Below the pieces are notes generated by a model, which saw only the letters and a program-made list of their open reading frames with translations, had not been told where the DNA came from and did no database searches. Shown one piece after another: positions 9,048-61,722 of a stretch of 64,000 nt of DNA. The translations under genes were made by a program, and so were the position numbers. Origin of the DNA: Lytechinus variegatus (taxonomy: Eukaryota > Echinodermata > Echinoidea > Temnopleuroida > Toxopneustidae); contig NC_054741.1 in NCBI RefSeq assembly GCF_018143015.1, forward strand, positions 59,022,197 to 59,086,196. Reading direction: 5' to 3'. Each line of letters opens with the position of its first letter. Positions within the stretch are counted from its first letter, which is position 1.

Positions 9048-9078
9048 AATTCGTCCCTGTTTTCACGAAGTGACGGAT
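9048..9078 (+). repeat. Left terminal inverted repeat (31 bp)
   Basis: This is an exact reverse complement of 14555-14585. It contains the CACGAAGTGACGG core that is repeated inside both ends of the element. Confidence 0.85.
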
Positions 9079-9313
9079 GTACGCGCAACTTTTTAAAAGC
9101 CAGTTGTGAGTAAATCGCTTGCAAAGGTTTAGACCTCAATCTCGACCTCTTTAATGTATGCAGGGTGAATAAATATCATATTTTCGTAGAGAGCATATTC
9201 TAGACAATCTTCGATTCCAATCATTTGCATTTTCCTTTAGTATTTACGAAGATAATGAGCTATAAACAGAACCATATTTTCGTGAAAAAAAAATTTTACG
9301 GGACACGCTTAGA

Positions 9314-9418
9314 TTTATTTTCACGAAGTGACGGATAGTGCTGCGCGCGCATAACCGTCACTTCGTGAAAACCCGAAATTCAAGGACGCGCTTCAATTTT
9401 GTTTTTACGAAGTGACGG
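9314..9418. repeat. Subterminal inverted cluster of the TIR core
   Basis: TTTTCACGAAGTGACGGAT (about 9318) is followed about 20 nt later by its reverse complement (about 9351-9371), giving a hairpin with 13-bp arms. A third copy with one change (TTTTTACGAAGTGACGGG) follows near 9399. Repeated transposase-binding sites near transposon ends commonly look like this. Confidence 0.7.
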
Positions 9419-12400
9419 GAAGAGGTTCCGCCTTAGTCCCACGTATAGCCTAGTGGATGCAATTCCATACTTATGTTTTAGATATACACAAACTCTTTAT
9501 TTCCTATTGCAAACAAAATTAATCCTAAATGTAAGATTAATAGGGCCTGCAGCTTCCGCTAATAAGTACAAAAAATTACTTCTAATACTGTTTTCTTTTT
9601 TTTCACGTAATAAAAGGGAAGCCCAATAGACACACGTTTTAAATTCTTAGGCCTATTTTATTTCAATATCATATTCATTTTTGATAGATGAACAATGAAA
9701 TTCGAAAGCTTTGTATAACAGGTCATGAAAAATGTGACTACAATGTAGTCGAATTGTCTTTTGTTCTTGTTAATTTATAAAGAGTTTAATTATACCCTTT
9801 GTGTGCTCTGACTCCGTTTGGAAATTGAAAATTCAACATTATAAACTTTTGTTAGTCTATTAACCTCCCTACCCCCTTCATAAAATGAAATCCCGATTGA
9901 TCAATGTCTCTTAAATGTTGTGTATTAATTCTTTGTTAAGGCCGAGTTAGTAATTCAACATTATTCTTTGAGACTAATAACTCGAAAATTGTAGTCAACT
10001 AAATGTGGACCTAACTTGTCAAAGGCAACAAGAATTGGTAAATTATGACTAATTGCTACCCCCCCCCAAAAAAAAGAATTTGTCAAAATAAAGCGAACAA
10101 ATTTCGAGTTACATATCATTCTCGCCCCCCCCCCCCTCATTCTCTCTCTACTCCGTTTTTCCTTTATCACAATGGTCATGTATTCTCTCCTGAAAATCCT
10201 ATTAAAATATCTTTTCATGCAAAATGAGAGTTATGTCATAAATCATTGAAAATACTAACGATATAAAATAAATTCTTCAAAGTTAGCAATGTGAATAAAT
10301 TTAGAAGAACACTTTTAATTCTATAACATATAAAATCATAGCAGCAAGTGACAAATAGAAAATTAAAATGTAACATTTTTTTCATATCAATCATTTCGAT
10401 AACATGATAAAGGTATGCTTAATAAATTCATTAAAGTATCATCTCCATACAATGTTAACAATGGAAATATATTTTTGACAAAATTTTAAATTCAATAATA
10501 TATAGGACCATAATCGCTAGTGACAAACACATCAACATTCATAATTATTAAAATTAATTTAATATTGCACTGTGAAAGGTATAGGAAATGAACCATCAGG
10601 TACACATTGTCAGAATTTTGTCATTTTATACATTTCATAAAACTTTAATATACCGTTATGCAACAATGTATTTATTTGTATATCATACCTTGCTAAACAC
10701 AATCAGTATAATCCTAGTCTGGGAATGCCACATTTAGAAATACAGAATTGCTATCAAGTACCAAATTCTACATTCAAAACATTCCAATGACAAATTAATA
10801 AACTTTCAATTACAAGATTACTGGAAAATAATTAATGCTAGTGGTGCAGGAAAGTTGTATTCTCTAATGTATATTTGTATTAACATACACATATACAAGT
10901 ATAATGGCCTATTTCTTTTCCATCAAAATAGAAGTAACATAGTCAACATTACTTGTTACATTCACTACTCTTTGGAATTTTTTAATGAAAAGAATGTCAT
11001 AATTAAATCAATTGCCTTGAGAGTTATTTCATGTTTTTACACACTGTCAAGGACTAAAAAGTCCAATAGAACAAAAAGCTTATCTTTACCGAAGGAAACA
11101 TGCAAACATTTGAATAAACAATTATAAACTATGATGGTCAAAGAAAGAAATATAATTTTAAATCAATAATTTAACGTCATATCAAACAGGATAATTTTTT
11201 TACAAATTTATAATCAAAATCCCAAACGACAGCGACAAAAGCAAAAAAAAATGCAAGGATAAAAAATACGAATGACTAAGTAGATTTGTATTTTTTCCAT
11301 CATTCTCAAGTCATTGGCTAAATAACATTCATCAATACAATTTCCAATCAAACACTTATTTTTTAATTGCAAATTATTGTCAGAGTCCAAAACAGGAACA
11401 TATATTAAAATACACCTTAGTTTCTTCCAAATCTGAAAACTTTACAAAAAATCGTCTTCATGGTTTTAGAAAATAACATCTTTGATCTAGTGGGATTAAA
11501 AAAAAGAGTAAAATTCTTACTACAAATAGACAGAAAAACATGTGCTGCAGTGTATCTGCAGACAGAAAAACATGTGCTGCAGCTAAACATAATCATGTAT
11601 TACTTCTTTCGTGAATAACAAAATCTAACAGTTGGATTTTCTGGAATAAAATTACGACACATCAACTGCATGAACCAGGTGTGTGAGCGATGACAAATAA
11701 AGACCTGAAAATTCTGTAGAGTTGGGGGATTAAATTGAATGAGATCTCAAACTATTGTACAGAAATGGGGGATATCAAGCTTGAAATAAAAAGCAAAAAA
11801 TAACTAAAATCAGCTTAAGAATTCTCACACCCCTGATAAACCAATAAAACATTACCTCATGGAAGAGGGGGGGGGGGGGGTGTCTGTATTAATACATTTG
11901 GCTTTTGAAAATGAATTTACAAAAACCTAATATGATTTTCACCCCTACATCCTTACTAGTAATATATCATGCAGCTATCGAGTTTCACAATGCATGTCAG
12001 TCTAAATTGTATGATTGTTATTAAAGAATATGTAGTATTAACACAATTCATTTAAGCACAATACAGCTAATAACATTCAGTTTTATTTTAAATGTAGAAA
12101 TATGCAGTATTTCTGTTTTTTAGATAGCACCAAGCAAAATGAAAACATGCGAATCAAATGAATGAAAAAGGGTAATTATTCTGCATCCATATGTGGACGA
12201 TGTGTATAAGCAATTTTAACATGTAAGTATAGAAGATAAGTGACTATTCTGAACTTTATATTTGACTGTATATATAAAATATTTTTAAAGGAGTTCATAA
12301 TCATATCACTATAAGAGCAGAGACTTATAGTTCAAGCAGTATAGTTTCTTTATATAATACACTGCTCTAAAAATGAAACCAGATTTGAAAGTCCTATCAT

Positions 12401-12682
12401 AATTAAAACTAAACTTATGTTGAAGTCAAAATCTCAAGAAAATTAAAATTGATATCAGTTACCCAGTTGGAAAAAGAAAAAGTTAGATGAGAGCACTGAA
12501 CCTGAAAGGCCACGAGGTAGAGCCAACTCCTTCACATTTTCACAAGTGTAGACAGAGTTTCATCATTAGAATTGCAGTCAGAGTTCTCAGAAGATGTTTC
12601 TAGTTTGGTTACTTCAATAGTTCAAAACCAGGGCACACTATAAAAATCCAGTCACTACCAAATCCACTGTCATGTCACCAAA

Positions 12683-13334
12683 TCAGATCATATCTGCGAT
12701 GTTCAGGGAATCATCAATGACACATCTGACAAGCGTGTCGGCCCCTGGATCTAACCTATGTGTGTGGAATGAAATAATGTACAAATTATCTGTTTGTTTT
12801 CAAAGTTTTTTGTCAATCCAATATCAAGTTTGTAGAATAGATAGCAGACTCAATATTTTAAATTACCCTTACCAAACATAAACCTCCCCAGTCAGTATGG
12901 TACAAGAATATACTTTATACACTCTATTTACCAATGATAATTTAAGCAAATATTTCAATTAGATGTTTCCAATTTATAAGAAAGTTTCAGCTGAAAATAT
13001 GATCACATGTCAAATTTGTAATGCTCTAGGGCAGTACACCAAGCATCTGTTAAAATGAGAATGTTCTTTTACAACTTAGAAATACATGTATATCTGCTAA
13101 ATTATAACGTATTCCAAAATTAATATTTTCTGATTATAACTTTGAATCAACATAGTTTTATAGCTTCATTGTTTACCAGATTTGCAATTGAAATTAATTT
13201 TGGTAGTGAGTGAAAATCAATGAATTGCTTATACTGACAGGATGTCATGTGAGTTTATAACACTATGAAAATTCTCACCTGGAATTGTATCTGACCATCA
13301 GCAACAAGTGTACCAGTTCCAGGACTTCTCTCAT
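12683..13334 (-). other. Possible two-exon minus-strand coding segment inside the 5.5-kb element
   Basis: An ATG at 13334 opens 18 codons that end at a strong donor (AG|GTGAGA, exon end 13279). A pyrimidine-containing acceptor (CACACACATAG) places the next exon at 12755. Joined in phase 2, the frame continues to a TGA at 12683, giving 42 codons in total (MREVLELVHLLL... ...IDDSLNIADMI). The phase-0 joining is also open for 37 codons, so the frame is not unique. The peptide is not recognised. It could be the tail of a captured or resident gene, or chance. Confidence 0.18.
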
Positions 13335-14554
13335 TTGTTCTCTGAAACATCACTTATTGTATATACTGCATCTGAAAAAAATGAAAATATCTTCATCATC
13401 ATGATTATGATCAAATCCGAGGTGCAGTTATTTATGTAGATTCTTTCAGTTTCTGTAAAACGTTATAGAGATAAGGGCGAGGAAGTGGCCACCAAACAAC
13501 AAAGTATAAAGCTCTATCTACATTAGATGTAGACTGAGTCTGGACTTGAGATTATTTAAAACATAAATCCCCAGTAATCTTCAGTTTAACTAACTAAGGA
13601 CTCAACTTATTTGCCCACACAGGTTGGCCACTAACTTTACCAAATTAATTCATGATCTCAGCATTCATATTGTTATTTATAGACCCCCCCCCCGGGTGGG
13701 GGGGGTATCTTTCCATTACATATTTTTTAAAGTATGTAATTACATGATGAGTTCACTATAGCAAAGCAGATAATAAAATCTATGTATTCATTTGTGATTT
13801 TTTTATGGAAATTTATTGCAAATACTATTCATATGGCCTGGGAACTTGTGAAGACAAGTTAGAACTTAACGAGTATGAGTTAACACAATGGCAATGCATG
13901 TAAATTAGACTAGATCTAGCTAGGCTAGGCCTAAACTTTTGCACCTATATACGATTATTTCACCAAATCCTCAGCCTTCATTAAATCTATTTAGTCTTGA
14001 TAAATGTTATAAAATATTCTAACCCTCATGGTTTGACTGAATTTACATTCAAGTTCGATTGAGTGATAAAGTACACGCAATACTCAGTTCAATTTTCACT
14101 GACACGAAAATAAATATGTGGGGCAATGTATGTAGAGATAGGACGTTATTTTAAGGATTTTTGCTATCAGAGACGTTTAAAAAGGGTTGAAATCACTCGA
14201 AATGACTTTAAAGGCTGCATTACATTTATTTCCTTTCCTACATTTACAAAAAACTCACCATTTCATGGTCTTCGGCTGTTCCAAACTGTAAATATTTGCC
14301 TTCCGTCACTTCGTGAAAAAACTCTTGAGTGCAAAGCGTATTCGTTTGTTTTCACGTAATTATGACGGCTGCTTATCCGTCACTTCGTGAAAACAAGAAA
14401 TCCTTTTACCCGGTATTTTATTGAATGTCATGTCGTCATAGCAACGTAATTAGACATTATTGTGATCTGAAACTTTTTGAGGTTCAAGATATAAGTCATA
14501 GATGTCCAAAAATGCAAAAAACTCAAAATTGAAAAAAGTGAAAATTTTCCTCTT

Positions 14555-14585
14555 ATCCGTCACTTCGTGAAAACAGGGACGAATT
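14555..14585 (-). repeat. Right terminal inverted repeat (31 bp)
   Basis: This is an exact reverse complement of 9048-9078. Inward copies of the same core lie at about 14304 and 14380. Confidence 0.85.
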
Positions 14586-19542: not shown

Positions 19543-20717
19543 ACAAGTGGAATGCCTCTGGCGGTCTCACCTGCATCACGCGATTCAATAAAGCAGCAGC
19601 ACTGACTTTGAAAACTACTATAAAATAATTATTCACAAAAACACCAATCATATAATGATAAATAAATTACTATGTTCATTGACATTTGACCTTGATCATG
19701 TGACCTAAAACTTGTCAGCGATACTTGATTACCCCTATATCCACAATTTATGCACTATATGTATAAACTTTGTAAGTTATGACAATAATCTAATAATTAC
19801 CTCTGAAATGGCCAAAGTTCAATGACCTTAAATGACCTTTGACATAGATCATGTGACCTGAAACTCGCACAGGAATTTTAGTGATTCTTGATTACTCTTA
19901 TATCCAAGTTTCATGACTCAGATCCATAAGCTTTCAAAGTTATGATGGTATTTCAACAGATACCCCCATTATGGCTAAACTTCATTAACCTTTAACCTTG
20001 GTCATGTGACCTGAAGTGCGCACAGGATGTTCAGTGATACTTAATTACTCTTATGTCCAAGTTTAATGAACTAGGCAAATATACTTTCAAAGTTATGATG
20101 GTAATTCAACAAATACCCCCAATTTGGACAAAGTTCATTTATCCTAAATGACCTTTGACCTTCATCATGTGATCTGAAACTTGCACAGGATGTTCAGTTA
20201 TACTTGATTACTGTTATGTCCAAGTTTCATGAATAAGATTCATAAACTTTTAAAGTTATGATGGTAATTCAACAGATTTGGCCAAAGTTCATTGACCCTA
20301 TCACCTTGACCTTGGTCATGTGACATGAAACCCATGCAGGATAATTAGTAATACTTGATTTATCTTTTGTCCAAGTTTCATGAACTAGGTCCATATATTT
20401 TTTTAAGTTATGAAGACATTTCAAAAGCTTAACCTTCGGTTAAGATTTTGATGTTGATTCCCCAACATGGTCTAAGTTCATTGACCCTAAATGACCTTTT
20501 ACCTGGTCATGTGACTCAAAACTCAGGCAGGATGTTCAGTAATACGTGATTAATCTTATGGCCAAGTTTCATGAACTATATACTTTCTAAGTTTTGCTGT
20601 CATTTCAAAAACTTAATCTTCGGTTAAGATTTGGTGTTGACGCCGCCGCCGTCGGAAAAGCGGCGCCTATATTCTCACTCTGCTATAGTCTCACTCTGCT
20701 ATGCAGGTGAGACAAAA
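19543..20717 (-). mobile_element. AGGTCA-repeat element, copy 1
   Basis: It starts ACAAGTGGAATGCCTCTGGC followed by GTCTCACCTGCATCACGCG and ends GCGGCGCCTATA...GCAGGTGAGACAAAAA. The same ends in reverse orientation bound copies at 29657-30752 and 40349-41392. The body holds about six tandem units of roughly 155 bp, each with CATGTGACC, TGACCTTTGACC-like sites, AAGTTATGATGGTAATTCAAC and TTCATGAA. GTCTCACCTGC near one end and GCAGGTGAGAC at the other form short inverted termini. It is non-coding and sits just upstream of the LC8 coding exon. Confidence 0.85.
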
Positions 20718-20780: not shown

Positions 20781-20799
20781 AACTTGGTAACAAGTCATC

Positions 20800-21069
20800 A
20801 TGTCTGAACGAAAAGCCGTGATCAAGAATGCTGATATGCCTGAGGACATGCAACAGGACGCAGTGGACTGCGCTACCCAAGCTCTCGAGAAGTTCAACAT
20901 CGAGAAGGACATCGCAGCCTACATCAAGAAGGAGTTCGACAAGAAATACAACCCAACCTGGCATTGCATTGTGGGTCGCAACTTTGGCAGCTACGTCACG
21001 CACGAGACAAAGCATTTCATCTACTTCTATCTGGGACAAGTCGCTGTGCTTCTTTTCAAATCTGGATGA
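20800..21069 (+). CDS. DYNLL1: Cytoplasmic dynein light chain LC8
   Basis: A complete 89-codon frame begins [19 protein letters not shown] and ends [11 protein letters not shown]. It matches the LC8/DYNLL family along its whole length, which is the family's normal size. Conserved blocks seen are [38 protein letters not shown] and [14 protein letters not shown], the last forming the strand that binds partner peptides. LC8 is a small homodimer that serves as a light chain of cytoplasmic dynein and as a general dimerisation hub for short linear motifs. The coding region has no intron here, whereas vertebrate DYNLL genes have one within the coding sequence. A plausible acceptor at 20769 implies a spliced 5' UTR, and no poly(A) tract follows, so a recent processed copy is not favoured. 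DYNLL1 and DYNLL2 cannot be told apart at this distance. Confidence 0.95.
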
Positions 21070-27372: not shown

Positions 27373-29656
27373 TTTGAATTTATTTCTGCACTCAGCATAA
27401 ATATTCAACATATCATCTAGGTGATACAATTAAGTTTTACAAAACAAGTTAAGAAATAGTCATAACAAAGCAATGAAAAATTAATATCAAAAAGTAGCAA
27501 TATTCAATGAAAATAAAATAACAGTTTAAACGAATGCAGGAGACCGCCATCGTGAGCGGTTAAGCTTGAAAATGATGGCGGCCTCGTAAAATGGTACATA
27601 AATTTCTTTCATTGATCAAGTGGGTGCAATGCAGGTGCAGGTGCGGGTGCAGTAAAGGGTAGTTGAATAATTAACTTGAAGAGGGGGATGCATATGATTC
27701 AATGGTTTTTCTTTTAATAGTGGCTTTAAATGAGTATAATGTTGAACATGACTTAACGTTGTTTGGAAGTTGTTCCAAATATCGGGACCATAATGTCGAA
27801 TTGATTTATGAGTTATTAATAACTTAGGGTTGGTGAGATGAAGGTTTCCTGATGTGCGGGTTGGGTAGGAATGAACAGACCTGTTAAACCTAAACATATT
27901 ATTAAAGGACGGAGGAAGTTGATTATTAAAGTATTTGAACATAAAGATAGCTACTTGAATCGTATTTATATCAAAGATTTTTAAGGTTTTAAGTTTATGA
28001 AACAATGGGTCAGAATGAGCCAAGTAATGTGACCCTGTGCACATACGGATTGCTTTTTTTGTTGTTTAAAGATGGAGTTTAGTTTAAAAGAACCACAATT
28101 TGCCCAAACGATATTACAATATGTTATATAAGGGAGGGCTAATGAATTGTATAATAAGAATAAAGTTTTGTCAGGAAGAGTGAATTTTAACTTAGAAATT
28201 ATTCCGATACTTTTGGAAACGGACATCGTAACATGGTGAATGTGTTGATTCCAAGTCAAAAATTCATCCATAATTATACCTAAAAATTTAGATTGGTTTT
28301 TCTGTTCAAGGGGGGTGCCGTCAATGTTAATGTGAATCGGTGGGTTAATGTTATGGGAATGGTGTCTGAAATACATAAAATGTGTCTTTTTGTATTAAGG
28401 GAGAGTTTGTTGGCTGTGAACCAGTTTGACACTTTGTCTATTTCACGATTAACGATATTGTTTAATGAATTAAGGTCTCTATGAGAATAAAATATATTGG
28501 TGTCGTCGGCAAATAATACGAAGGATAAAATAGAGGAGGTTCTAATAATGTCGTTAATGTAGAGTAAAAATAAAAGTGGGCCTAAAATGGAACCTTGAGG
28601 GACACCACATCGAACTAAAAGAGAATCAGAGTCGCAACTGTTAAAATTGACATATTGCCTTCGATTATTTAAGTAGTCTTTAAAAAAAGAGAGACATTGA
28701 CCTCGTATTCCATAATGGTTGAGTTTGGAAAGTAAAATTTCATGGTTGAGGGTGTCAAACGCTTTACTAAGATCGCAAAAAATGCCAATTACGTGTTCTT
28801 TGTTCGCTATGGCATTTGTTATTTTGTCATAAATTTGAAGTAATGCTAAGTCTGTTGAATAATTTTTTCTAAAACCATATTGATTACAATTTAGAATGTT
28901 GTATTTGTTTATGAATTTATAAAGTCTTGTGTAAACTATTTTTTCGAGAATTTTAGATATTGTTGGAAGTAAGGAAATGGGACGGTAATTACTTATTTCG
29001 TGAGGGTTGTCTTTTTAAAGATTGGATTAACTTTTGCAATTTTGAATAAGTCTGGAAAAACACCTTGGGATAGGGAGTTATTAAATATGTGAGTAGGAGG
29101 GCTAGCAAGAGGGTGGATTATTTGCTTAAGAAGAGACATGTTAATGCCATCGCAACCAGAAGATCTAGAATTATGAAGGGAACGAACAATAGTGATTATT
29201 TCGGAGGGGTTTGTTGGGGTTAAAAAAAGAGATTCTTGATTTGGATCTGTGAGGTAATCTGTAAAATGTGCGTTGGGACTATTAATTTTGTTTGCAAGCT
29301 CGGGTCCAATATTGGTAAAGTATTTCAAGTAAAGTATTTTTTTCTGGGATCAAGTATTTCAGATCCATTGAGAGTGATTTTATCATTAGGTGGGGGGTGT
29401 GTTATTGTACCCAACACTTCTTTGATTACTTTTCAAGTTGTATTTGTATTTCCATTGGCAGCGTTTATTTTGTTAGTAAAGTGCAATTTTCGGGATATTC
29501 GAATTAATTTTGTTAGTTTATTACGATATATTTTATATTTTTTTTAAAGAATCATCAGTTGGATTGCGTAAGTGATATTTATATAGGCGATTACGTGTCT
29601 GTATGGACTTCAGTAAACCTTTCGTTATCCAAGGATTTTTGGGTTTGTTACGTTGG

Positions 29657-30752
29657 TTTTTGTCTCACCTGCGAAGCAAAGTGAGACTATAGGCGCCGCT
29701 TTTCCGACGGCGACGGCGGCGGCATCAAATCTTAACCTGAGGTTAAGTTTTTGAAATGACGTCATAACTTAGAAAGTATATGGACCTAGTTAATAAAACT
29801 TGGCCATAAGGTTAGTCAAGTATTACTGAACATCCTATTAGAGTTTCATGTCACATGACCAAGGTCAAAGGTCATTTAGGGTCAATGAACTTAGGCCATG
29901 TTGGAGGAATCAACATCGAAATCTTAACCTGAGGTTAAGTTTTTGAAATGTCATCATAACTTAGAAAATATATGGACCTAGTTCATGAAACTTGGACATA
30001 AGGTTAATCAAGTATCACTGAACATCCTGCATGAGTTTCCCGTCACATGACCAAGGTCAAAGGTCATTTAGGGTCAATGAACTTTGGCCGAATTGGGGAT
30101 ATCTGTTGAATTCCCATCATAACTTTGAAAGTTTATGGATCTGATTCATGAAACTTGGACATAATAGTAATCAAGCATCACTGAAAATTTTGTGCAAGTT
30201 TCAGGTCTCATGATTAAGGTCATTTAGGGTCAATGAACTTTGGCCGAATCGGGGGTATCTGTTGAATTACCATCATAACTTTGAAAGTTTATTGGTCTAG
30301 TTCATTAAACTTGGACATTAGAGTAATCAAGTATCACTGAACATCCTGTGCGCATTTCAGGTCACATGACCAAGGTCAAAGGTCAATGAACTTTGGCCGA
30401 ATTGGGTGTATCTGTTGAATTACCATCATAACTTTGAAAGTTTATGGATCTGATTCATGAAACTTGTACATAAGAGTAATCAAGTATCACTAAACATCCT
30501 GTTCGAGTTTCAGGTCACATGATCAAGGTCAAAGGTCATGAAAGGTCAATGAACTTTGGCCATGTTGGGTTTTTTTTGTTGAATAACCATCATATCTCTG
30601 TAAGTTTATTGGTCTAGTTCATAAAAAGTGGACATAAGAGTAACCATGTATCACTGAACATCTTGTGCGAGTTAGAGTAGTATTCAAAGTCAGCACTGCT
30701 GCTATATTGAACCGCGTGATGCAGGTGAGACGGCCAGAGGCATTCCACTTGT
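29657..30752 (+). mobile_element. AGGTCA-repeat element, copy 2, inside a LINE
   Basis: It runs from TTTTTGTCTCACCTGCGAAGC with GGCGCCGCTTTTCCGACGGCG to GATGCAGGTGAGACGGCCAG...CATTCCACTTGT. Six units of about 155-190 bp follow one another. AGGTCAAAGGTCA is intact in four (near 29867, 30055, 30374 and 30527). LINE coding sequence resumes on both sides, so insertion postdates the LINE. Confidence 0.9.
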
Positions 30753-31773
30753 TTACTTTACCTATAGGGATATTCTTTTCATAATAATGTTTTAATGTAT
30801 TATTGAAGTTATTGTATGCAATATTGGGATTTACTTCATTATAAACATCATCACATTCTTCCAAAACTAGATCTTGCTTCAGTAATTCTATATTTTGTTT
30901 AGATTCTTTACGATAAGTATATTCTTTATTTGATTTGGGGTAAGACAATTTACAATCACAAGTTAAGAAAATAGGCAGGTGGTCCGAAACTTCAGAACAT
31001 AAAATCCCTCCTATGGCTTTGTTATTATGAACATTCGAAAATATGTTATCAATCTGAGTTGATGAATTCAAGTTAATCCTTGTGGGTTTATTAATAATAG
31101 AAATAAAACCAAACGAATATATTAATTTCATGAAATTTGATGAATTATTAATGTGAGATGAGGGCAAGAAGTTGATATTACAATCACCGAGCAAAAAACA
31201 ATGTTTGTTTTCATTCCCTATTTCATGAAAAAAATATTCTAGTTCATCGTGAAAACGATCGATATTTGTATCAGGTGGTCTATAAATTAATCCTATGATG
31301 ATATTTTTGGATTTAGAATTTTCAATCTCTATAAACAATGACTCGGCATGCAATAATTTAACATCAGATCGAATCTTGAATTTGAGATTTTGTGAAATGT
31401 AAAAAGCAACTCCTCCTCCTCTTCTTCCCTTACGGTCTGCCCTTATCAATTTATAATTAGGTATATCAAACATGTCAGGAGAACTTCCATGTAGCCATGT
31501 TTCGCTTAAACCGATGACTGAAAATTGAAAGTTATTTAATGAGTGTAAGAGGTTAACTAAATATTTAAAGTTTCTATTTAGACTTCTTATGTTTGCATGT
31601 AAACGAGATAGATGATCTGGAGTAATATTAAATTCGTTGTTGAATTCTTGGGGAGTGTAATATTTGCTATCTTGCGGGTTCTCAATGAAAATATCTGGAG
31701 TAAAATTATGTGACTCAAACAGGGGAACGTGAAAATGTAAAGTACCGGAGGTTTGGAGAGAGGTCAACTGCAA
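30753..31773 (-). CDS. LINE apurinic-type endonuclease domain
   Basis: The 340-codon frame shows the endonuclease order: LHANIRSLNRNF, SVIGLSETWL, RRGGGVAFYI, IIIGLIYRPPDTN, FLLGDCNINFL, THIDNIF-type TQIDNIF and SDHLPIF. The catalytic SDH and GD.N motifs are present. The frame is cut at NIPIGKV by the inserted repeat element; codons beyond 30753 in the raw frame come from that insertion. The domain nicks target DNA to prime reverse transcription in CR1/L2-type elements. Confidence 0.85.
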
Positions 31774-31969
31774 GTGTGCAAGTGGTGCATGTGCGTGAGT
31801 GTGTGTGTAGAGGTGTATTCATGTGTGAAAGTGGTGCTAGTATATCAACAATAAGACCATATTTGAATGCAAAAAGAGTAAGACCCATCTTGGTCATTAA
31901 TGGCTGGGCAGCAGAGCAGAGCTCGACCACCTTAAAGATACAATGGATAAACCAATTTCAGCAAATAAA

Positions 31970-33012: not shown

Positions 33013-33400
33013 GACCTCTATAATAAATTACCAATTCATTTATCGTCTAGTTCAACGATACATTCATTTAAATCAAACATTCAATTGAATCTCGGTTTTC
33101 CATAATGATTTGCCTGTTGTGGCATTTTTTTTTGTTGGGGGGGGGGTTGGGTAGTGATTTTTCATTCTTTTCATGCATTCGATTAAGTTTTGTGTATATT
33201 TTGTATATTTGTTTTATATGCATGTATTTATGTTTTAAGGACCCCATGGAAGAACAATGGTATCTTATTGATACCGCTGCATGAAATGGGCCATCCTCCA
33301 TCTGTATGTTATGTTAAATAGATCATGTATATATTTTATTTTTTTTATATGGAAATAAATACAAACAAACAAACAATAAATAAATAAATAAATAAATAAA
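33013..33400 (+). mobile_element. 5'-truncated LINE copy, same family as 58362-61722
   Basis: It starts within the sequence encoding the last residues (TATAATAAATTACCAATTC) and follows 61350-61722 almost base for base. It includes the G-run, CATTCGATTAAGTTTTGTGT, GACCCCATGGAAGAACA-like text and the end GGAAATAAATACAAACAAAC, then (AAAT)n. Truncation at the 5' end is the normal outcome of LINE insertion. Confidence 0.9.
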
Positions 33401-37031: not shown

Positions 37032-37432
37032 CGGAATCACCAAAGGACAGATAGCTCTGGCATGTCTGGGAACCTTGATTTAAGCTACGCCTACCATTAT
37101 TATCTTCATTCATTTCTTTCACAAGTAACATATAATATGCATACATACATTCATATAATAATATATATTCTTTCTTTTTCTACTATTTATCATTAACAGT
37201 ATATTACTATTATCATTATTATAATATTAGAATAAACATATATATTAATCATAGCTGGGTATATTTGTTCAATCAAAAGTACATCTTCTAAAGAATGAAT
37301 AAATCAAGAAATGTATGCTGTCATACCCTTTTTCCGTTCCTTTCCAGATCATGCGGTACGCTCCGAAGTGGCATTGTTTTCCCTTCTTATGAATTCATTG
37401 TTTTTATTTTGTAATTATGTAGAGTTCCTGTC

Positions 37433-38929
37433 ATGGCTGAGGAGTTAAAAGACACGATTACTCAGAGTCTGGAGTGTCCTGTTTGTCTGACTACCTTCAC
37501 TGATCCAAAGATACTGTCTTGTTGCCACACCTATTGCAAGGTCTGTCTGGAAAAGCTCTTGGAATGCCATGGTGATGATCAGATGATCCGATGTCCTGTC
37601 TGCAAAGCTGATACCCAGGTCCCAAATCAGGATGTCGGCCAACTACCGGCAAGCCTAGCTTTGAGGAATCTTATAGAGGACGTGAAAAATCAACATCAAA
37701 TTTGCACGAATTGTGATTCCGAGGATAAGCCCAAAGCTGTTGTCTACTGCCAAGACTGTGGCAACTATCTATGTATTACTTGCCACAATATGCACTCTCA
37801 GTGGAAAAACTTTGTCGATCATGAGATCATAGCCATGAGTGAGATCTCATCAGGAAAGGTGTCAATACGTAGATACCGGAAATGCAGGAAACATCCGAAA
37901 GAAGATGAAGAATGTTTCTGTTCTAATTGTAAGAGATTCACATGCTTCAGGTGTGCTGTTATGGAACATAAAGACCAAGGACACCAGGTCATCGAGGCAG
38001 CTACGTATGAAAGTAATCACATGAAGACCATCGAAGAGCTTAAATCCAAGGTGGAGAAGAAACAATCTAGCTTTCAGAATTACATCGATCTCATCGATGA
38101 AGAGCAGAAGTGTGTGGATGATGCTATGAAGCATTGCACAGATGACATCAACAAAGCATATGATGAAGCAGTTCAGCAGTTGACAGAGAAGAGAGAAATC
38201 CTTCTTGGTGAAGTCAAGGGAAAGACTAAAAGAGCAGAGAATGCCCTTGAAGAAATGAAGACATCAGCTCGGCAGCGCATCAATCAGTTGACGACCATTG
38301 CTGAGATGGTAACCAATAGGAGAAATGCACCAGTAGACATGGATACTTTGGCTGTGTATGACACTTTATGTGAAGACCTACAAGAGGCCTTAAATCAGGA
38401 AAATCCTGATTACGAGCAGCCGAATAAAACATGCGGGAAGGCGAAAAGTTCAATTTTTGAGAGAAATGTTGGAAAGGACGAGCTAGGTCTTGGAAAGATT
38501 GTTAATGAGATTTTAAAGAGCATTACTTTGCCTACTAAAGATAGCATGAATGCCATGGTAAACACACCAGATGGTAGGATGGCAGTAGGACGTGGTAAAG
38601 CACGTGGCGTGAACATCTTCTCTGCTAATGGTCGTCTCCAGAAGACAGTCCTCAAGGATGTTAGTATGTTTGCATTGGGTTTCCTCTCTGATGGTCGATG
38701 TGTTGTAATTGATATGTCAAACACTGTAGCACTGTACTCACAAGACTACACAAAGTTGAATGTGATGTTTAAGACTTTGAATAAAGATGAAGGTGGGGTT
38801 TCTAACCTCACTGTTGATAGTGATGATCTGATCTATGTTAGCTACAGGAAACCCAAGAAGATCCTGGTGTTCTCATCAGCAGGTGGGAAGGCAATCAAGG
38901 AGATACCATGCCACGGATATGTACCTTAG
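37433..38929 (+). CDS. TRIM56-like RING/B-box/coiled-coil protein, ended by an in-frame TAG
   Basis: The 498-codon frame from MAEELKDTITQS carries a C3HC4 RING finger (C15, C18, C30, H32, C35, C38, C54, C57). It also has B-box 1 (C91, C94, C106, C109, C114, C117, H121, H130), B-box 2 (C151, H154, C163, C166, C171, C174, H179, H184) and a coiled coil of about residues 195-310. From about residue 365 a C-terminal region with NTPDGRMAVG and LGFLSDGRCVV repeats looks like the beta-propeller-like end of TRIM56/TRIM2/3-type proteins. RING TRIM proteins are E3 ubiquitin ligases, often in innate immunity. The acceptor TTTTGTAATTATGTAG lies just before the ATG, implying a 5' UTR exon. The TAG at 38927-38929 falls inside the propeller, and the same frame continues afterwards. 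Confidence 0.9.
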   Translation: MAEELKDTITQSLECPVCLTTFTDPKILSCCHTYCKVCLEKLLECHGDDQMIRCPVCKADTQVPNQDVGQLPASLALRNLIEDVKNQHQICTNCDSEDKPKAVVYCQDCGNYLCITCHNMHSQWKNFVDHEIIAMSEISSGKVSIRRYRKCRKHPKEDEECFCSNCKRFTCFRCAVMEHKDQGHQVIEAATYESNHMKTIEELKSKVEKKQSSFQNYIDLIDEEQKCVDDAMKHCTDDINKAYDEAVQQLTEKREILLGEVKGKTKRAENALEEMKTSARQRINQLTTIAEMVTNRRNAPVDMDTLAVYDTLCEDLQEALNQENPDYEQPNKTCGKAKSSIFERNVGKDELGLGKIVNEILKSITLPTKDSMNAMVNTPDGRMAVGRGKARGVNIFSANGRLQKTVLKDVSMFALGFLSDGRCVVIDMSNTVALYSQDYTKLNVMFKTLNKDEGGVSNLTVDSDDLIYVSYRKPKKILVFSSAGGKAIKEIPCHGYVP

Positions 38930-40348: not shown

Positions 40349-41392
40349 TTTTTTGTCTCACCTGTGAAGCAGAGTGAGACTATAGGCGCCGGCGACGGCG
40401 GCGGCGGTGGTGGCGTCAACACCAAATCTTAACCGAAGGTTAAGTTTTTGAAATGACAGCATAAAGTATATGGACCTTGTTCATGAAACTTGGCCATGAG
40501 GTTAATCATGGTCCATTAATTAATCAAGTATTACTGAACATCCTACCCGAGTTTCAGGCTACATGACTAAGGTCAAAGGTAATTTCGGGTCAATGGACCT
40601 TGACCATGTTGGGGGAATCAACATCAAAATCTTAACCTGAGGTTAAGTTTTGGAAATGCCATCATAACTTCAAAAATATATAAACCTAGTTCATGAAACT
40701 TAGACATAAAAGTAATCATGTATTACTGAACAACCAACCAACCAGAGTTCAGGTCACATGATCAAGGTCAAAGGTAATTTATGGTCAACGAACTCTGGCC
40801 ATGTTGGGGGTATCTGTTGGATTACCATCATAACTTTGATAGTTTTTGGATCTGATTCATGAAACTTGGACATAAGAGTAATCAAGGACCATTGAACATC
40901 CTGTGCGAGTTTATGTCACATGATTAAGGTCAAAGGTCATTTAAGGTCAATGAACTATGGCCATGTTGGGGGTATTTGATGAATAACCAACATAACCCTG
41001 TAAGTGAATGGATCTAGTTCATAAACTTGAACATAAGAGTAATCAAGTATCACTGAACATCCCATGCGAGTTTCAGGTCACATGGCCAAAGGTCATTTAA
41101 GGTCATTGAACTTTGGCCATTATGGAGGTAATTACTAGATCGTTGTAATAACTTTCAAAGTTTATAGATATAGCTTATAAAATGTGGATATAGGGGTAAT
41201 CAAGTATTACTGACAAGTCTTAGGACCCACGATCAAGGTCAAATGTCATTTATTGTCAATGAATGTAGTATTGTATCATTATATGAATGGTGTTTGTTGT
41301 GAGTGATTATTTGATAGTAGTTTTCAAAGTCAGCACTGCTGTTATATTGAATCGCGTGATGCAGGTCAGACTGCCAGAGGCGCTCCACTTGT
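40349..41392 (+). mobile_element. AGGTCA-repeat element, copy 3
   Basis: Same orientation and ends as copy 2: TTTTGTCTCACCTGTGAAGC, GGCGCCGGCGACGGCGGCGG, and at the right GATGCAGGTCAGACTGCCAG...CTCCACTTGT. It has about six internal units. The AGGTCA pairs are more decayed than in copy 2; AAGGTCAAAGGTCA is kept near 40927. Confidence 0.88.
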
Positions 41393-41865
41393 TTGACTGG
41401 GGGTGCTGATGTAAATTTGGCAAGCGAAAAAAAAAGTTTCTTTACAAAATGTAGGTAATTACATTAATTTTGTCACACCTTCCGGAATTTCAGGGGCTGC
41501 TGCCTATGAAGAACAATACACGCAGCACGCCCAAGGAACATATACTGAGGGCGCTTCAGCACCCCCGCTCTCCGGGACCATGAGAGATAATCATTTGACG
41601 CTAATATTATGGAGCAGCAGTGACACTTTTTCGAGCGAAATATTCACAACACATGTTTCTCTAAACATGTTCTAGGGGAGTTACTTGATTGCCCCCTCCC
41701 CTTCTCTTTGTCCTTCCTATATTTTGTATTTTGTTATCTAGTTTGTGTTACGCAGGCGTATCTTGCTCCAAGTCGTTTTCCAGGGGTTTTATGCTTAAAT
41801 CATTCAGTTTGTATATATTTGTATTTCTTAAATTTCAGTTGATTTCTTTCGATTTGTACTTGTCA

Positions 41866-45045: not shown

Positions 45046-45256
45046 TTATTATCATTATTATTATTATCATCATTATATTCATAAATGGATGAAAATCCCT
45101 CCAGTTCAAAGATGAGTTATCCTCTGGGAGAGGTGTTGTATGATCTTTTAAATAGATCATACAACACCTCTCCCAGAGGATAACTCATCTTTGAACTGGA
45201 GGAATTTTCATCCATTTATGAATATAATGATGATAATAATAATAATGATAATATTA
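45046..45256. repeat. Near-perfect long palindrome, arms about 102 bp, 7-nt loop
   Basis: The left arm (45046-45147) and right arm (45155-45256) are reverse complements with one internal mismatch (ATCCCTCC against ATTCCTCC) and a slightly different outer end. Each arm holds ATTTATGAATATAATGATG, TCTTTGAACTGGAGG, GAGTTATCCTCTGGGAGAGG and TGTTGTATGATCT. Only TTTAAAT separates them. It would form a long hairpin in RNA or single-stranded DNA. Confidence 0.95.
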
Positions 45257-52761: not shown

Positions 52762-55712
52762 GTTTTTTTTTTAAAGAATGGAATATATATACCTGAATAT
52801 TATGGTGAAACCAATTTCGAAAGGAGGTGAGGCAAGTTTCAATGGAGGTTATTAAAAAAATAAACTGTACTACACATTATAGTGAAGCCAGTTTAAAAGG
52901 AGGTGAGGCAAGTTTCAATGGAGGTTTTTATAATTAACTGTACTCTAAATTATGGTGAAGCCAATTTAAATGGAGGTGAGGCAGGTTTCAATGGAGGTTT
53001 TTTTTATAAAGAATAAACTGTACCACACATTATGGTGAAGCCAGTTTAAAAGGTGAGGCAAGTTTCAATGGAGGTTTTTTTTAAAGAATAAACTACTACA
53101 AATGATGGTGAAGCCAGTTTAAATGGAGGTGAGGCAGGTTTCAATGGAGGTTTTTTAAAAAGAATAAACTGTACCACACATTATGGTGAAGCCAGTTTAA
53201 AAGGAGGTGAGGCAAGTTTCAATGGAGGTTTTTTTAAAAAGAATAAACTGTACCACACAATTATGTTGAAGCCAGTTTAAATTACAGGTGAGGCAAGTTT
53301 CAATAGAGGTTTTTTTTTAAGAATAAACTGTACCACACATTATGGTGAAGCCAGTTAAAAGAAGGTGAGGCAAGTTTCAATGGAGGTTTTTTAAAAAGAA
53401 TAAACTGTACTACAAATTATGGTGAAGCCAGTTTAAATGGAGGTGAGGAAGGTTTCATGGAGGTTTTTTAAAAAGAATAAACTGTACCACACATTATGGT
53501 GAAGCCAGTTTAAAAGGAGGTGAGGCAAGTTTCAATGGAGGTTTTTAAAAAAGAATAAACTGTTCCACACATTATGGTGAAGCCAGTTTAAAAGGTGAGG
53601 CAAGTTTCAATGGAGGTTTTTTAAAAAGAATAAACTACTACAAATGATGGTGAAGCAAGTTTTAATGGAGGTGAGGCAGGTTTCAAAGGAGGTTTTTTAA
53701 AAAGAATAAACTGTACCACACATTATGGTGAAGCCAGTTTAAAAGGAGGTGAGGCAAGTTTCAATGGAGGTTTTTTAAAAAGAATAAACTGTACCACACA
53801 ATTATGTTGAAGCCAGTTTAAATTATAGGTGAGGCAAGTTTCAATAGAGGTTTTTTTTAAAAGAATAAACTGTACCACACATTATGGTGAAGCCAGTTAA
53901 AAGAAGGTGAGGCAAGTTTCAATGGAGGTTTTTTAAAAAGAATAAACTGTACCACACATTATGGTGAAGCCAGTTTAAAAGGAGGTGAGGCAAGTTTCAA
54001 TGGAGGTTTTTTAAAAAGAATAAACTGTTCCACACATTATGGTGAAGCCAGTTTAAAAGGAGGTGAGGCAAATTTCAATGGAGGTTTTTTTTTAGAATAA
54101 ACTACTACAAATGATGGTGAAGCCGGTTTAAATGGAGGTGAGGCAAGTTTCAATGGAAGTTTTTTTTAAAAAAGAATAAACTGTACCACACATTATGTTG
54201 AAGCCAATTTAAAGGGAAGTGAGGCAAGTTTCAATGGAGGTTTTGAAAAGAATAAACTGTACCACACAATTATGTTGAAGCCAGTTTAAATTATAGGTGA
54301 GGCAAGTTTCAATAGAGGTTTTTTTTAAAAAGAATAAACTGTACCACACATTATGGTGAAGCCAGTTTAAAAGAAGGTGAGGCAAGTTTCGATGGAGGTT
54401 TTTTTTAAAAAAGAATAAACTGTACCACACATTATGGTGCAACCAATTTTAAAGGTGAGGCAAGTTTCAATGGAGGTTTTTATAACTGTACTACAAATGA
54501 TGGTAAAGCCATGTAAAAGGAGGTGAGGCAAGTTCCAATGGAGTTTTTTATAACTGTACTACAAATGATGGTGAAGCCAATTTAAAAGGAGGTGAGGCAA
54601 GTTTTAGGTTTTTAAAAAGAATAAATTGTACTACACATGATGGTGAAGCCATTTTAAATGGAGGTGAGGCAGGTTTCAATGGAGGTTTTTAAAAAGGAAA
54701 ACTGTACTGGTATTATGGTGAAACCAATTTTAAAGGAGGTGAGGCAAGTTTCAATGGAGGTTTTTATAACTGTACTACAAATGATGGTAAAGCCATGTAA
54801 AAGGAGGTGAGGCAAGTTCCAATGGAGTTTTTTATAACTGTACTACAAATGATGGTGAAGCCATGTAAAAGGAGGTGAGGCAAGTTTCAGGTTTTTAAAA
54901 AGAATAAATTGTACTACACATGATGGTGAAGCCATTTTAAATGGAGGTGAGGCAGGTTTCAATGGAGGTTTTTTTAAAAAGAAAAAATTATGGTGTAGCC
55001 AATTTAAAAGGAGGTGAGGCAAGTTTCAATGGAGGTTTTTAAAAAGAAAAAACTGTACTGGTATTATGGTGAAACCAATTTTAAAGGAGGTGAGGCAAGT
55101 TTCAATGGAGGTTTTTATAACTGTACTACAAATGATGGTGAAGCCATTTAAAAGGAGGTGAGGCAAGTTTCAGGTTTTTAAAAAGAATAAATTGTACTAC
55201 ACATGATGGTGAAGCCATTTTAAATGGAGGTGAGGCAGGTTTCAATGGAGGTTTTTTTAAAAAGAACAAATTATGGTGTAGCCAATTTAAAAGGAGGTGA
55301 GGCAAGTTTCAATGGAGGTTTTTAAAAAGGAAAACTGTACTGGTATTATGGTGAAACCAATTTTAAAGGAGGTGAGGCAAGTTTTAATGGAGGTTTTTAT
55401 AACTGTACTACAAATGATGGTGAAGCCAATTTAAAAGGAGGTGAGGCAAGTTCCAATGGAGTTTTTTTATAACTGTACTACAAATGACGGTGAAGGGTTA
55501 GGGTTAGGGATTTGTTCTTTTTAAAAAGAACAAATTATGGTGTAGCCAATTTAAAAGGAGGTGAGGCAAGTTTCAATGGAGGTTTTAAAAAAGAAAAAAC
55601 TGTACTGGTATTATGGTGAAAATAATTTTAAAGGAGGTGAGGCAAGTTTTAATGGAGGTTTTTATAACTGTACTACAAATGATGGTGACGCCAATTTAAA
55701 AGGAGGTGAGGC
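52762..55712. repeat. Minisatellite, about 39 units of about 76 bp, with higher-order structure
   Basis: The unit is roughly ATTATGGTGAAGCCAGTTTA, AAAGGAGGTGAGGCAAGTTT, CAATGGAGGTTTTTT, AAAAAGAATAAACTGTACCACAC. Variant units are interspersed. One with TTATGTTGAAGCC, AATTATAGGTGAGG and CAATAGAGG recurs near 53260, 53800 and 54268. Another with ACTGGTATTATGGTGAAACC recurs near 54708, 55061, 55335 and 55598. The right part uses TATAACTGTACTACAAATGATGG in place of the A-rich linker. Nearly every unit holds AGGTGAGG. No unit spacer is unique, so it is not a CRISPR-like array. Confidence 0.97.
55495..55509 (+). repeat. Telomere-type GGGTTAGGGTTAGGG inside the minisatellite
   Basis: Fifteen bases of TTAGGG-type sequence replace the usual end of one minisatellite unit, right after GACGGTGAA. 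Confidence 0.8.
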
Positions 55713-55859
55713 ATATCACACAATTATATTTTTTTATGTAAACAATAACGTGTATATACCTTAGGAAAGAAAAAGAATGGGGTGTGCCTATGGGCCTGCC
55801 TATAGGGTTTCACCTTCAATTGTTTGCTGTAGTAAAACTTATCTTGAGTGATACTAGCA

Positions 55860-57900: not shown

Positions 57901-58361
57901 CCGGTTCATTGCACAGTGTACATTCTATTTTATGAGGATACTATTCTATGAAAATAATACATTGTTTTTTCTGGAATGATAGAGACAATTGTTTTCAAAT
58001 TCTCGTTTAAATATTTAGAATGATCATTGATTCTTGTCAAGTTTGAGCAAATCTCTATTCTAGAATGACAAAAGGTATCTATTGAGATACAGTCTTATGG
58101 AGGACTTTTGTCTTTTTCTCTCATTGGACAATGTTAACAGCTTTTGATAAATATTTTTTTTTACTACACTTGGCAAGGGTAGGAAAAAAAACGACATTTC
58201 GCTTACCAAGATACTTTTATTTTAATTTTCATTCAAACCATTCATTATCATTACTATTGCATTTGTATGTAATTGTAGTCTGGGGGTTCTTGTGGGTTTT
58301 TTAGTTTTTTTATTTTTTTATTTTTTATTTTTATTTTTTTTCTTCTTCTATATCATTGTTA

Positions 58362-59681
58362 ATGAATAGACGTTTTCCTTGTGCTATATGTAACAACGTC
58401 GTGAAAAATAACCAAAAGGGGCTACTTTGTACATCTTGCAATTTATGGGTTCATATTTCTTGTGTCAACATTCCTTTGAGGATTTATAACGATGATTCAG
58501 AACTTTTCTTAAATTGGAAATGTCCAAAATGTTTAATGAAAGAATTACCTTTTTATAATGATACTTCTGATACTTCAAACCTACCGATTTATAATGTACC
58601 ATTTATTGGACATGACGAAAGAAATCTTAGATATCGGGAGTTAGCATTAAAAGGATTACGTTTTGCGCAGTTAAATGTTGTAAGCTTATTGAGGAATATT
58701 GATGAAATACGTTCAATTCTCATTGACAATCAAATTCACATATTTGCACTTAATGAAACGAGATTAGATGATAGCATTAATAATGGTGAGGTACTTATAC
58801 CAAATTATGAAATAATCCGTAAAGATAGAAATAGGGTGGGAGGTGGAATTGCAATTTACATCCACGAAACTTTAAAATTTACGCTATTAGAGCATGATTC
58901 ATTGTCTTCGATAGAAGCAATAGCAATTGTTACTCATTTAAAAAACACGCAACCTATTATATTTGTTAATTGGTACAGACCTCCTAATTCCCATAGTGCG
59001 GTTCTCGATTAATATGAACAAATGTTATCTTTTGTTAGTGGATTCAACTATTCAATGATAATAATGGGAGATGCAAATTTTGATATAAAACGACCGAGTA
59101 ATTCACAGACTTTGAAATACAATCAAATTAATAGTATTTATTCACTAGAACAAGTTAATACTTCTAAATATACACGAATAGTGGGCGGCTCCGCAACACT
59201 AATTGATCATATGCTTACTAATTCTATAAATAAAGTGAGGTCTTTTGGTGTAATCGATAATGGGCTTAGTGATCATTCTATGAGTTTTCTCATTTGGAAA
59301 TCCCATTCAATGGATACCCATGAAAAATACGTTACCTTCAGGAAGTGTAGAAATATTGATATCAGTCGCTTTAAATCTGATGTTAAAAACCAAAATTGGA
59401 ATGAGATAGAAAATTTTGATGACATAAATGATGCGGTAAAAAAGTGGGAAGAACTTTTGCTAGAGGTTGTGGATAAACATATGCCATTTAAGACTAAACG
59501 TGTAAAGAATAAACACTCTCCTTGGTTAAATGAACATCTCTTCAACTTAATGAAACAGAGAGATCGAATGAAATGTAAAGCTAAATCAAAACAAGATGAA
59601 AGGTTATGGGTAGAGTATAGGCGCTTAAGAAATAAAGTCACCTATGAAATAAAAAAAGAAAAAAAAGAAATATTATTATGA
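58362..59681 (+). CDS. LINE PHD finger and endonuclease frame
   Basis: The frame starts at ATG 58362 (MNRRFPCAICNN). The finger uses Cys4-His-Cys3 spacing: CAIC, CTSC, HISC, CPKC within the first 65 residues. The endonuclease follows: LRFAQLNVVSLLRN, HIFALNETRLDD, GGGIAIYIHETL, FVNWYRPPNSH, IIMGDANFDI, TLIDHMLTN and LSDHSM. A TAA at 59010-59012 breaks the frame before the GDANFD motif, and the same frame continues beyond it. After the endonuclease comes a basic linker with SPWLNEHLFNLMKQRD. Confidence 0.9.
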
Positions 59682-61445
59682 AAAATTATGTCAAAATCAA
59701 ACTAGAAATGAGTCTTGGAAAGTACTAAAATCATTTATATCAAATCGTAATGTATCATCTGCTAACCATTCATGCACTGGTGACGCTTTTGAAACTGCTA
59801 ATAAATTCAATCTACATTTTGCAAGTGTTGCTAACAACGTATCTATTGATGAAACGCAAGGTTTAACAGATTTTCCTCAAGTACTTGATATTGATGATAT
59901 ATTTACTTTAAACAAGATACAAGAAAGTGATATTTTAAAAGAAATCAATGCACTTAAAAACAAAAAGTCTGTTGGAGTTGATGGTATATCTACATTTATT
60001 CTAAAGACTTGTGCAAATGAATTAGTCCCCTCAATAACCTATTTAATAAATAGATCTATTGTAGACGGAAAAGTACCAGGTAAATGGAAAGTTGCCAAGA
60101 TAATACCTTTACACAAAAAGGGGGACAAATCGAATCCTGATAATTTCAGACCAATTTCATTACTCCCATGTGTTTCTAAGTTACTTGAAAGGGTCATTCA
60201 AAAACAGCTATTGCATTATCTGAATAAAAACCAAATCCTCATTTCTGAACAATCAGGATTTAGACCTAAACACTCAACTACGACAGCCCTATCAAAGGTT
60301 ACTGATGAATGGCTTCTTGCCATGGATAATGGGGATTATACGGGAGCCGTCTTTTTAGATTTACAAAAAGCCTTTGACCTAGTCAATCACCAAATACTTT
60401 TATCTAAACTATCTGTCCTTGGAGTTACTGGTAAATCACTCGATTGGTTCTTAAGCTATCTTTCCGATCGTTAAAATTAGAACTTGTTTGAATAATGTCT
60501 ATTCTTATGAATATGTAATTTCAAATGGTGTACCCCAGGGGTCTATATTGGGTCCGCTTCTCTTTGTTATATTCATAAATGATTTGTCATGCTCTCTTCA
60601 TAAATGTTCTTTTCATTTATATGCCGATGACTCTGTTTTATATTTCTCGGATAAAAATCCACTTGTAGTTGAAAGAACACTTAATAATGAACTAAAAATG
60701 TTGCAAATTGGATGAGCAAAAATCGATTAAAACTTAATTGTAATAAATCCGTAAGTATGTTTTTAGGTACTCGGCATATGTTGGCAAGACACAAAAATCT
60801 TCACTTACGCATTCGCGAAACAGATATTCAAATGGTAGAAAGTGTTAAATATCTTGGAGTTTTTATTGATAGGGAACTTAAATGGAATGTTCATTTTGAT
60901 CACATGTGTTCAAAAATTGGTAAAATGATTGGTTTCCTTGGCAGACTTAGGCGATTTGTTAATGAATCTAGTTTAAATTTAATATATTCTTCGGTTATCC
61001 TTCCACACTTTGATTATGCTGATATTGTTTGGCAATCTGCATCTAAAAAATATTTGGATTTATTGCAAAAACTACAAAATCGTGCAGGAAGAATTATTCT
61101 AAAAATCGATCCATATTTGCATACTTCATCCTCATACATCCATGACATCTTGAAATGGAAGACTTTAAATACCCGGCAAAAGAACATATGTACGTAATGA
61201 TGTTTAAAATTTTGAATAATTTCGCACCTGATTATATGAAAACACAATTTTCTCGTAAATCATACCCTTACTCTCTCCGTACAGAAAATCACATCAGTCT
61301 CCCAAAAACAAATTCAAACAGCTGTAACCGGACATTTTTGTATAGGGGGGCTACACTTTATAACAAATTACCAATTCATTTATCGTCTAGTTCAACGATA
61401 CAGTCATTTAAATCAAATATTCAATTGTATCTCGGTTTTCCATAA
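59665..61445 (+). CDS. LINE reverse transcriptase and C-terminal region (frameshifted)
   Basis: Frames in order read KNKKSVGVDGISTFILK, KVAKIIPLHKKGDKSN, NFRPISLLPCVSKLLE, SGFRPKHSTTTAL, GAVFLDLQKAFDLVNH, GVPQGSILGPLLFVIF, HLYADDSVLYF, NRLKLNCNKS, VKYLGVFIDRELKW and finally YNKLPIHLSSSSTIQSFK. The catalytic YADD is intact. The frames change near 60475, 60697 and 61180. Confidence 0.9.
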
Positions 61446-61722
61446 TGATTTGCCTGTTGTTGCATTTTCTTTTGTTTTTTTGGGGGGGGGGGGGGGGGGG
61501 TGGGTAGTGATTTTTCATTCTTTTCATGCATTCGATTAAGTTTTGTGTATATTTTGTATATTTGTTTTATATGCATGTATTTATGTTTTAAGGACCCCAT
61601 GGAAGAACAGTGGTATCTTATTGATACCGCTGAAATGGGCCATCCTCCATCTGTATGTTATGTTAAATAGATCATGTATATATTTTATCTTTTTATATGG
61701 AAATAAATACAAACAAACAAAT

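Follow-up and report, generated by a model that had tools for sequence, protein, structure and literature searches.

The stretch of DNA analysed here (the window) comprises 64,000 nucleotides of the sea urchin Lytechinus variegatus genome (NC_054741.1, positions 59,022,197–59,086,196), and between window positions 9052 and 14581 it contains a 5,530-bp element with inverted ends, which very probably belongs to a family of long (~5.5 kb), non-autonomous DNA transposons of the cut-and-paste type moved in trans. The 31-base ends at 9048–9078 and 14555–14585 are exact reverse complements, and an earlier reading of this DNA, made from the letters without database searches (the sequence-only reading), had described them as perfect 31-bp inverted ends with no evident target duplication. 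The exact complementarity was confirmed, but comparison with other copies in the genome revealed that the repeat proper is 27 bp long, starting with CGTCCCTG, and that AATT, the outermost four bases, is the target site duplication, because these four bases vary among copies and are identical within a copy in 34 of 36 facing pairs of ends, while the 25 bases inward from CGTCCCTG are identical in 76 of 85 end matches in the genome. Since AATT is palindromic, it adds four apparent bases to each inverted end; the duplication is present, masked by its own palindromy, and had been overlooked for that reason.

A search of 869,567,369 bases in 33 contigs with the 25-bp end, allowing up to 3 mismatches, gave 85 matches, which correspond to 36 facing pairs and 13 single ends (counted from the match list), and the reversed control of the same 25 bp gave no match in the same genome. 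Identical 4-bp duplications flank 34 of the 36 pairs (30 of the 32 fetched pairs and all four of the others that were read); among the fetched pairs, L016 and L025 had no exact 4-bp match. The duplications were AATT in 16 cases, AAAT in six, ATAT in five, ATTT in four, and AGAT, TAAT and AAAC in one each, so that 31 of the 34 have the form AWWT. In the fetched pairs, the base preceding the duplication was T or C in 26 of 30 and the base following it was G or A in 27 of 30. The tabulation behind these counts has 33 rows, including one for L026+27, which has a truncated right end and stands outside the 36 pairs, and is without the five loci having one recognisable end (L010, L012, L022, L028 and L032).

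Empty sites were sought for the 31 copies whose two ends fell within a single fetched locus: their flanks were joined and compared with the window as well as the fetched loci. For copy L034, uninterrupted relatives of the repeat into which it is inserted were found at window positions 33029–33120 and 61369–61461, each carrying AATT once, the second lying where a reverse-transcriptase element ends; for copy L043, such relatives were found at 19543–19858 and 41076–41397, each carrying TAAT once. Junction-spanning matches for L018, L037, L040 and L044 were ragged at or beside the junction and were excluded from the count. Both the end-pair search and the empty-site comparison had been suggested by the sequence-only reading; the first, with 36 facing pairs of which 34 have identical flanking duplications, identified a real transposable unit, and the second was clean for L034 and L043, with the repeat copies lying inside the window itself. 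The unit is a copy of a real, mobile and recently spread family.

Copies of a core, TTTTCACGAAGTGACGG, accompany the ends. Within 3 mismatches, seven were found in the window, all of them inside 9060–14573, six exact and one with a single mismatch. The chance expectation was 0.13, and seven copies were reached in none of 100 shuffles, in agreement with the earlier statement that the ends and their clustered cores are hard to explain by chance. The description of the subterminal copies as pointing inward was roughly right: those on the left begin at 9318 (+), 9355 (−) and 9402 (+), and those on the right at 14303 (−) and 14377 (−). The seven copies are probably binding sites of the transposase. 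The features of the element are listed in Table 1.

Table 1 Features of the element in window coordinates.
Feature	Position	Strand	Remark
4-bp target site duplication, left (AATT)	9048–9051	.	Same as 14582–14585
Left 27-bp terminal inverted repeat, CGTCCCTGTTTTCACGAAGTGACGGAT	9052–9078	+	Exact inverse of 14555–14581; outer 25 bp used in genome search
Subterminal core, exact; hairpin partner of 9355–9371	9318–9334	+	
Subterminal core, exact; faces 9318–9334	9355–9371	−	
Subterminal core, 1 mismatch	9402–9418	+	
Interior, collinear in compared copies apart from deletions and inserts	9421–14302	.	ORF, Pfam and codon-periodicity tests
Subterminal core, exact	14303–14319	−	
Degenerate core-like copy opposite 14377–14393	14348–14368	+	Fuzzy search
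Subterminal core, exact	14377–14393	−	
Right 27-bp terminal inverted repeat	14555–14581	−	Exact inverse of left end
4-bp target site duplication, right (AATT)	14582–14585	.	Equals left copy

Analysis of the interior revealed no recognisable coding capacity. The element contains no long open reading frame (ORF), its longest stop-free stretch being 129 codons, and six-frame translation in pieces of at least 25 residues yielded nothing in Pfam with an E value below 0.057. The 358 fixed substitutions that separate the two subfamilies described below are spread over the three phases (133, 111 and 114), and 398 of 1000 random sets reached a bias as strong as the largest found in any 150-bp stretch, giving no sign of codon periodicity. 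The absence of a recognisable transposase, asserted by the sequence-only reading, therefore held for ORFs, for phase bias and for the six-frame Pfam search that it had asked for. Since no enzyme is recognisable in the element, it was probably moved by an enzyme from elsewhere.

When copies aligned over more than 3,800 positions were compared, the family split into two main sets, one differing from the window copy by at most 3.4% (window-like), the other by 7.4–8.1%; 358 fixed substitutions and 46 insertions or deletions (indels) separate the subfamilies. For the subfamily counts, copies were grouped according to their identity to the window copy, which placed one 466-bp piece of L031, a B copy, in group A. 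Deletions and inserts aside, the window copy and 32 other long copies are collinear. Divergence is only 0.32–0.35% in the closest pairs, whereas an old copy on C15, L053, is collinear at 72–82% identity across the aligned interior pieces; taken together, the age and collinearity of L053 and the closeness of the youngest pairs show a long-lasting spread of the family around one and the same interior. An extra stretch of ~590 bp, with a TTA run at its start and retroelement-like by eye, is present in the B copies L019, L014, L043, L009, L042, L032 and L031 and in part in L023.

In none of the 36 facing pairs do the ends lie closer together than 4.6 kb (counted from the match list), and no short form of the kind called a miniature inverted-repeat transposable element (MITE; a short element, under about 1 kb) was found among them; the MITE reading was rejected on this basis, and the case that the sequence-only reading had named against itself, ends occurring mostly as short MITEs, was not what the genome contained. 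The family shares with MITEs and other non-autonomous cut-and-paste transposons its terminal repeats, its target duplications, its lack of coding and, presumably, its movement in trans, but differs from them in its ~5.5-kb length, its common non-coding interior and its repeated subterminal cores. Two longer copies, L026+27 (~12.8 kb, right end truncated) and L029-31 (22.6 kb), were considered as an autonomous form and rejected, as they are read as carrying nested elements. Their inserts, 7.3 and 18.1 kb long, lie in different subfamilies near element position ~3257 (window ~12304), which is AT-rich; each has its own inverted ends (recognised by eye in the 7.3-kb insert), and similarity between the two is limited to 151 bp. 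The 18.1-kb insert contains ORFs that were named reverse-transcriptase-like by eye.

A search with the right-end sequence gave 40 matches (40 of 47 candidates scored), all of them known end sites or the truncated right end of L026+27. One locus, L052 (C10:3875000-3877199), was considered as a separate family with related ends and rejected as a lone old fragment: in its terminal 379 bp, the first 86–94 bp match family copies, and beyond these only the adjoining 63-bp stretch found matches (41 matches; 40 of the 45 candidates were scored). In the genome, CGTCCCTGTTTTC, the exact 13-bp terminus, is present at 95 places, 81 of them family ends and 14 unpaired others, compared with 12 for the reversed control. 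Because no partner with matching ends was found in these searches, the source of the transposase is lost, missing from the assembly or equipped with altered ends.

The most likely course of transposition is the following. A transposase from another element would bind the terminal 27-bp repeats together with the core copies clustered next to them, cut the element out there at its outer CG and reinsert it at Y-AWWT-R by a staggered cut of 4 bp, leaving AWWT duplications behind; going by this target rule, the enzyme may be of the Sola2 type. We infer its supply in trans and its binding to the cores with high confidence, in contrast to the Sola2 assignment.

For that assignment, several superfamilies were considered. 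Ginger, Chapaev and Academ elements produce duplications of 3–4 bp and are therefore alike to the element in duplication length, in a comparison made by description and not by sequence. Ginger ends in TGT and Chapaev in CAC, unlike the CGTCCCTG of the element, and we know of no AWWT target preference in any of the three. Sola2 elements of the social amoebae Dictyostelium fasciculatum and Polysphondylium pallidum are described as having AWWT, AT-rich 4-bp duplications beside short terminal inverted repeats, and some of their families as having lost most of the transposase region (PMC3627910). The AT-rich AWWT duplications (31 of 34 here) are the likeness to that description, and the differences are the repeat length, 27 bp here versus 12–13 and 21 bp in the social amoebae (PMC3627910), and the family's lack of a Sola2 or any other transposase in our searches. 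Since AWWT duplications have been reported for Sola2, we tentatively place the family as long, non-autonomous and Sola2-type; the chances of true membership are about even. Put differently, the element may be said to work like a Sola2 element, and whether it is one could fall either way. Repbase classes non-autonomous DNA elements by duplication length together with terminal alignment (PMC4455052); the duplication-length half of this rule fits Sola2.

Several points weigh against a non-autonomous element moved in trans by such an enzyme. Most non-autonomous elements are shorter than 5.5 kb, and a uniform one of this length is unusual. A search with the exact 13-bp terminus, which a partner with even one changed base would escape, turned up no second family with paired ends. 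The class is tentative in that the element was compared with Sola2 by description only. Conservation of the cores was shown, with one fixed subfamily difference in 119 core sites versus 358 in 5,361 sites overall (6.7%; P = 0.0026) and private changes at 19 of 4,180 core positions versus 2,286 of 181,997 overall, by a test that is biased, the copies having been found via the core and the regions partly picked after looking. Neither the left 500 bp (31 fixed differences in 500 sites) nor the left hairpin (5 in 143, P = 0.079) nor the right subterminal block (4 in 98, P = 0.21) was significantly conserved.

The alternatives differ mainly in what they make of the interior. It is unlikely that the unit is a degenerate autonomous element, with an interior representing a decayed, intron-split transposase gene that spread while still working or later in trans. 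Such a history would fit the minus strand, where splice-like motifs surround short, open, exon-like stretches at about 14258–14340, 13270–13340 and 12680–12740, with an acceptor-like site near 12740 (all read by eye); it would also fit the right 500 bp, which are more conserved than the rest (15 fixed differences in 496 sites, P = 0.00024), and the collinearity of the old copy L053 over most of the interior. However, no Pfam match was obtained in six frames or for four short exon-like peptides, and a joined 42-residue peptide had no match in the PDB. The phase bias is within chance and 46 indels separate the subfamilies; indels alter the exon-like stretches themselves in some copies, and a 10-bp deletion within 13270–13340 sets the window type apart from other copies. 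In L053, stop-free stretches reach at most 131 codons.

A gene-carrying element, in which the ends captured host DNA with exons in place of the transposase gene, is quite unlikely. The same exon-like motifs of the minus strand could be read in this way, as could an interior matching no Pfam family, but a 951-bp interior piece containing two of the exon-like stretches matched family copies only (40 of 43 candidates scored), one of them the old copy at 78%, and no outside source locus appeared among these. The sequence-only reading had offered a deletion derivative, a gene-carrying element and a member of a superfamily with an unrecognised enzyme; a large non-autonomous derivative fits best, and the element, with no enzyme detected in it, gives nothing by which to judge the third. 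Very doubtful, too, is a transposase of an unrecognised superfamily that would use the clustered facing cores as a multi-site end complex, the interior being kept for a function such as a spliced non-coding RNA from the right subterminal region. Chance inverted repeats, an assembly artefact or segmental duplication in place of transposition are already refuted by matching duplications at independent sites together with empty sites, and the seven cores against 0.13 expected also speak against them. In their favour, at C1:669800-681000 (L032, L009) the sequences flanking the element ends at 670178 and 680702 on the outside are exact reverse complements of each other (204 bp, 100%), an inverted duplication of flank and element that is either an artefact of assembly or of very recent origin.

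Apart from the element, the window contains several features of its own. A dynein light chain type 1 ORF lies at 20791–21066 (+) and a TRIM-like ORF with RING and B-box at 37415–38926 (+). Two ORFs are non-LTR retroelement-like, one at 28283–31818 (−) with reverse transcriptase and endonuclease and one at 58305–60471 (+) with reverse transcriptase and a PHD finger. A near-perfect inverted repeat at 45047–45253 has 103-nt arms that are 98% complementary and 1 nt apart, and a long tandem array at 52799–55713 consists of ~70–80-bp units with higher-order periods.

A search of open-licence papers for the end sequences brought up no work on transposons, its two hits, on other subjects, having come through the 13-base piece only; the family appears new as far as could be told, and its kind is familiar. 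Biologically, the non-autonomous transposon described here is an ordinary genomic parasite, unusual chiefly for its size. It provides an example of a palindromic target duplication being taken for part of the terminal repeat. With its exact ends, Y-AWWT-R target rule and recurring subterminal sites, the family is defined well enough for its transposase to be sought and for insertion polymorphism to be tested in populations.

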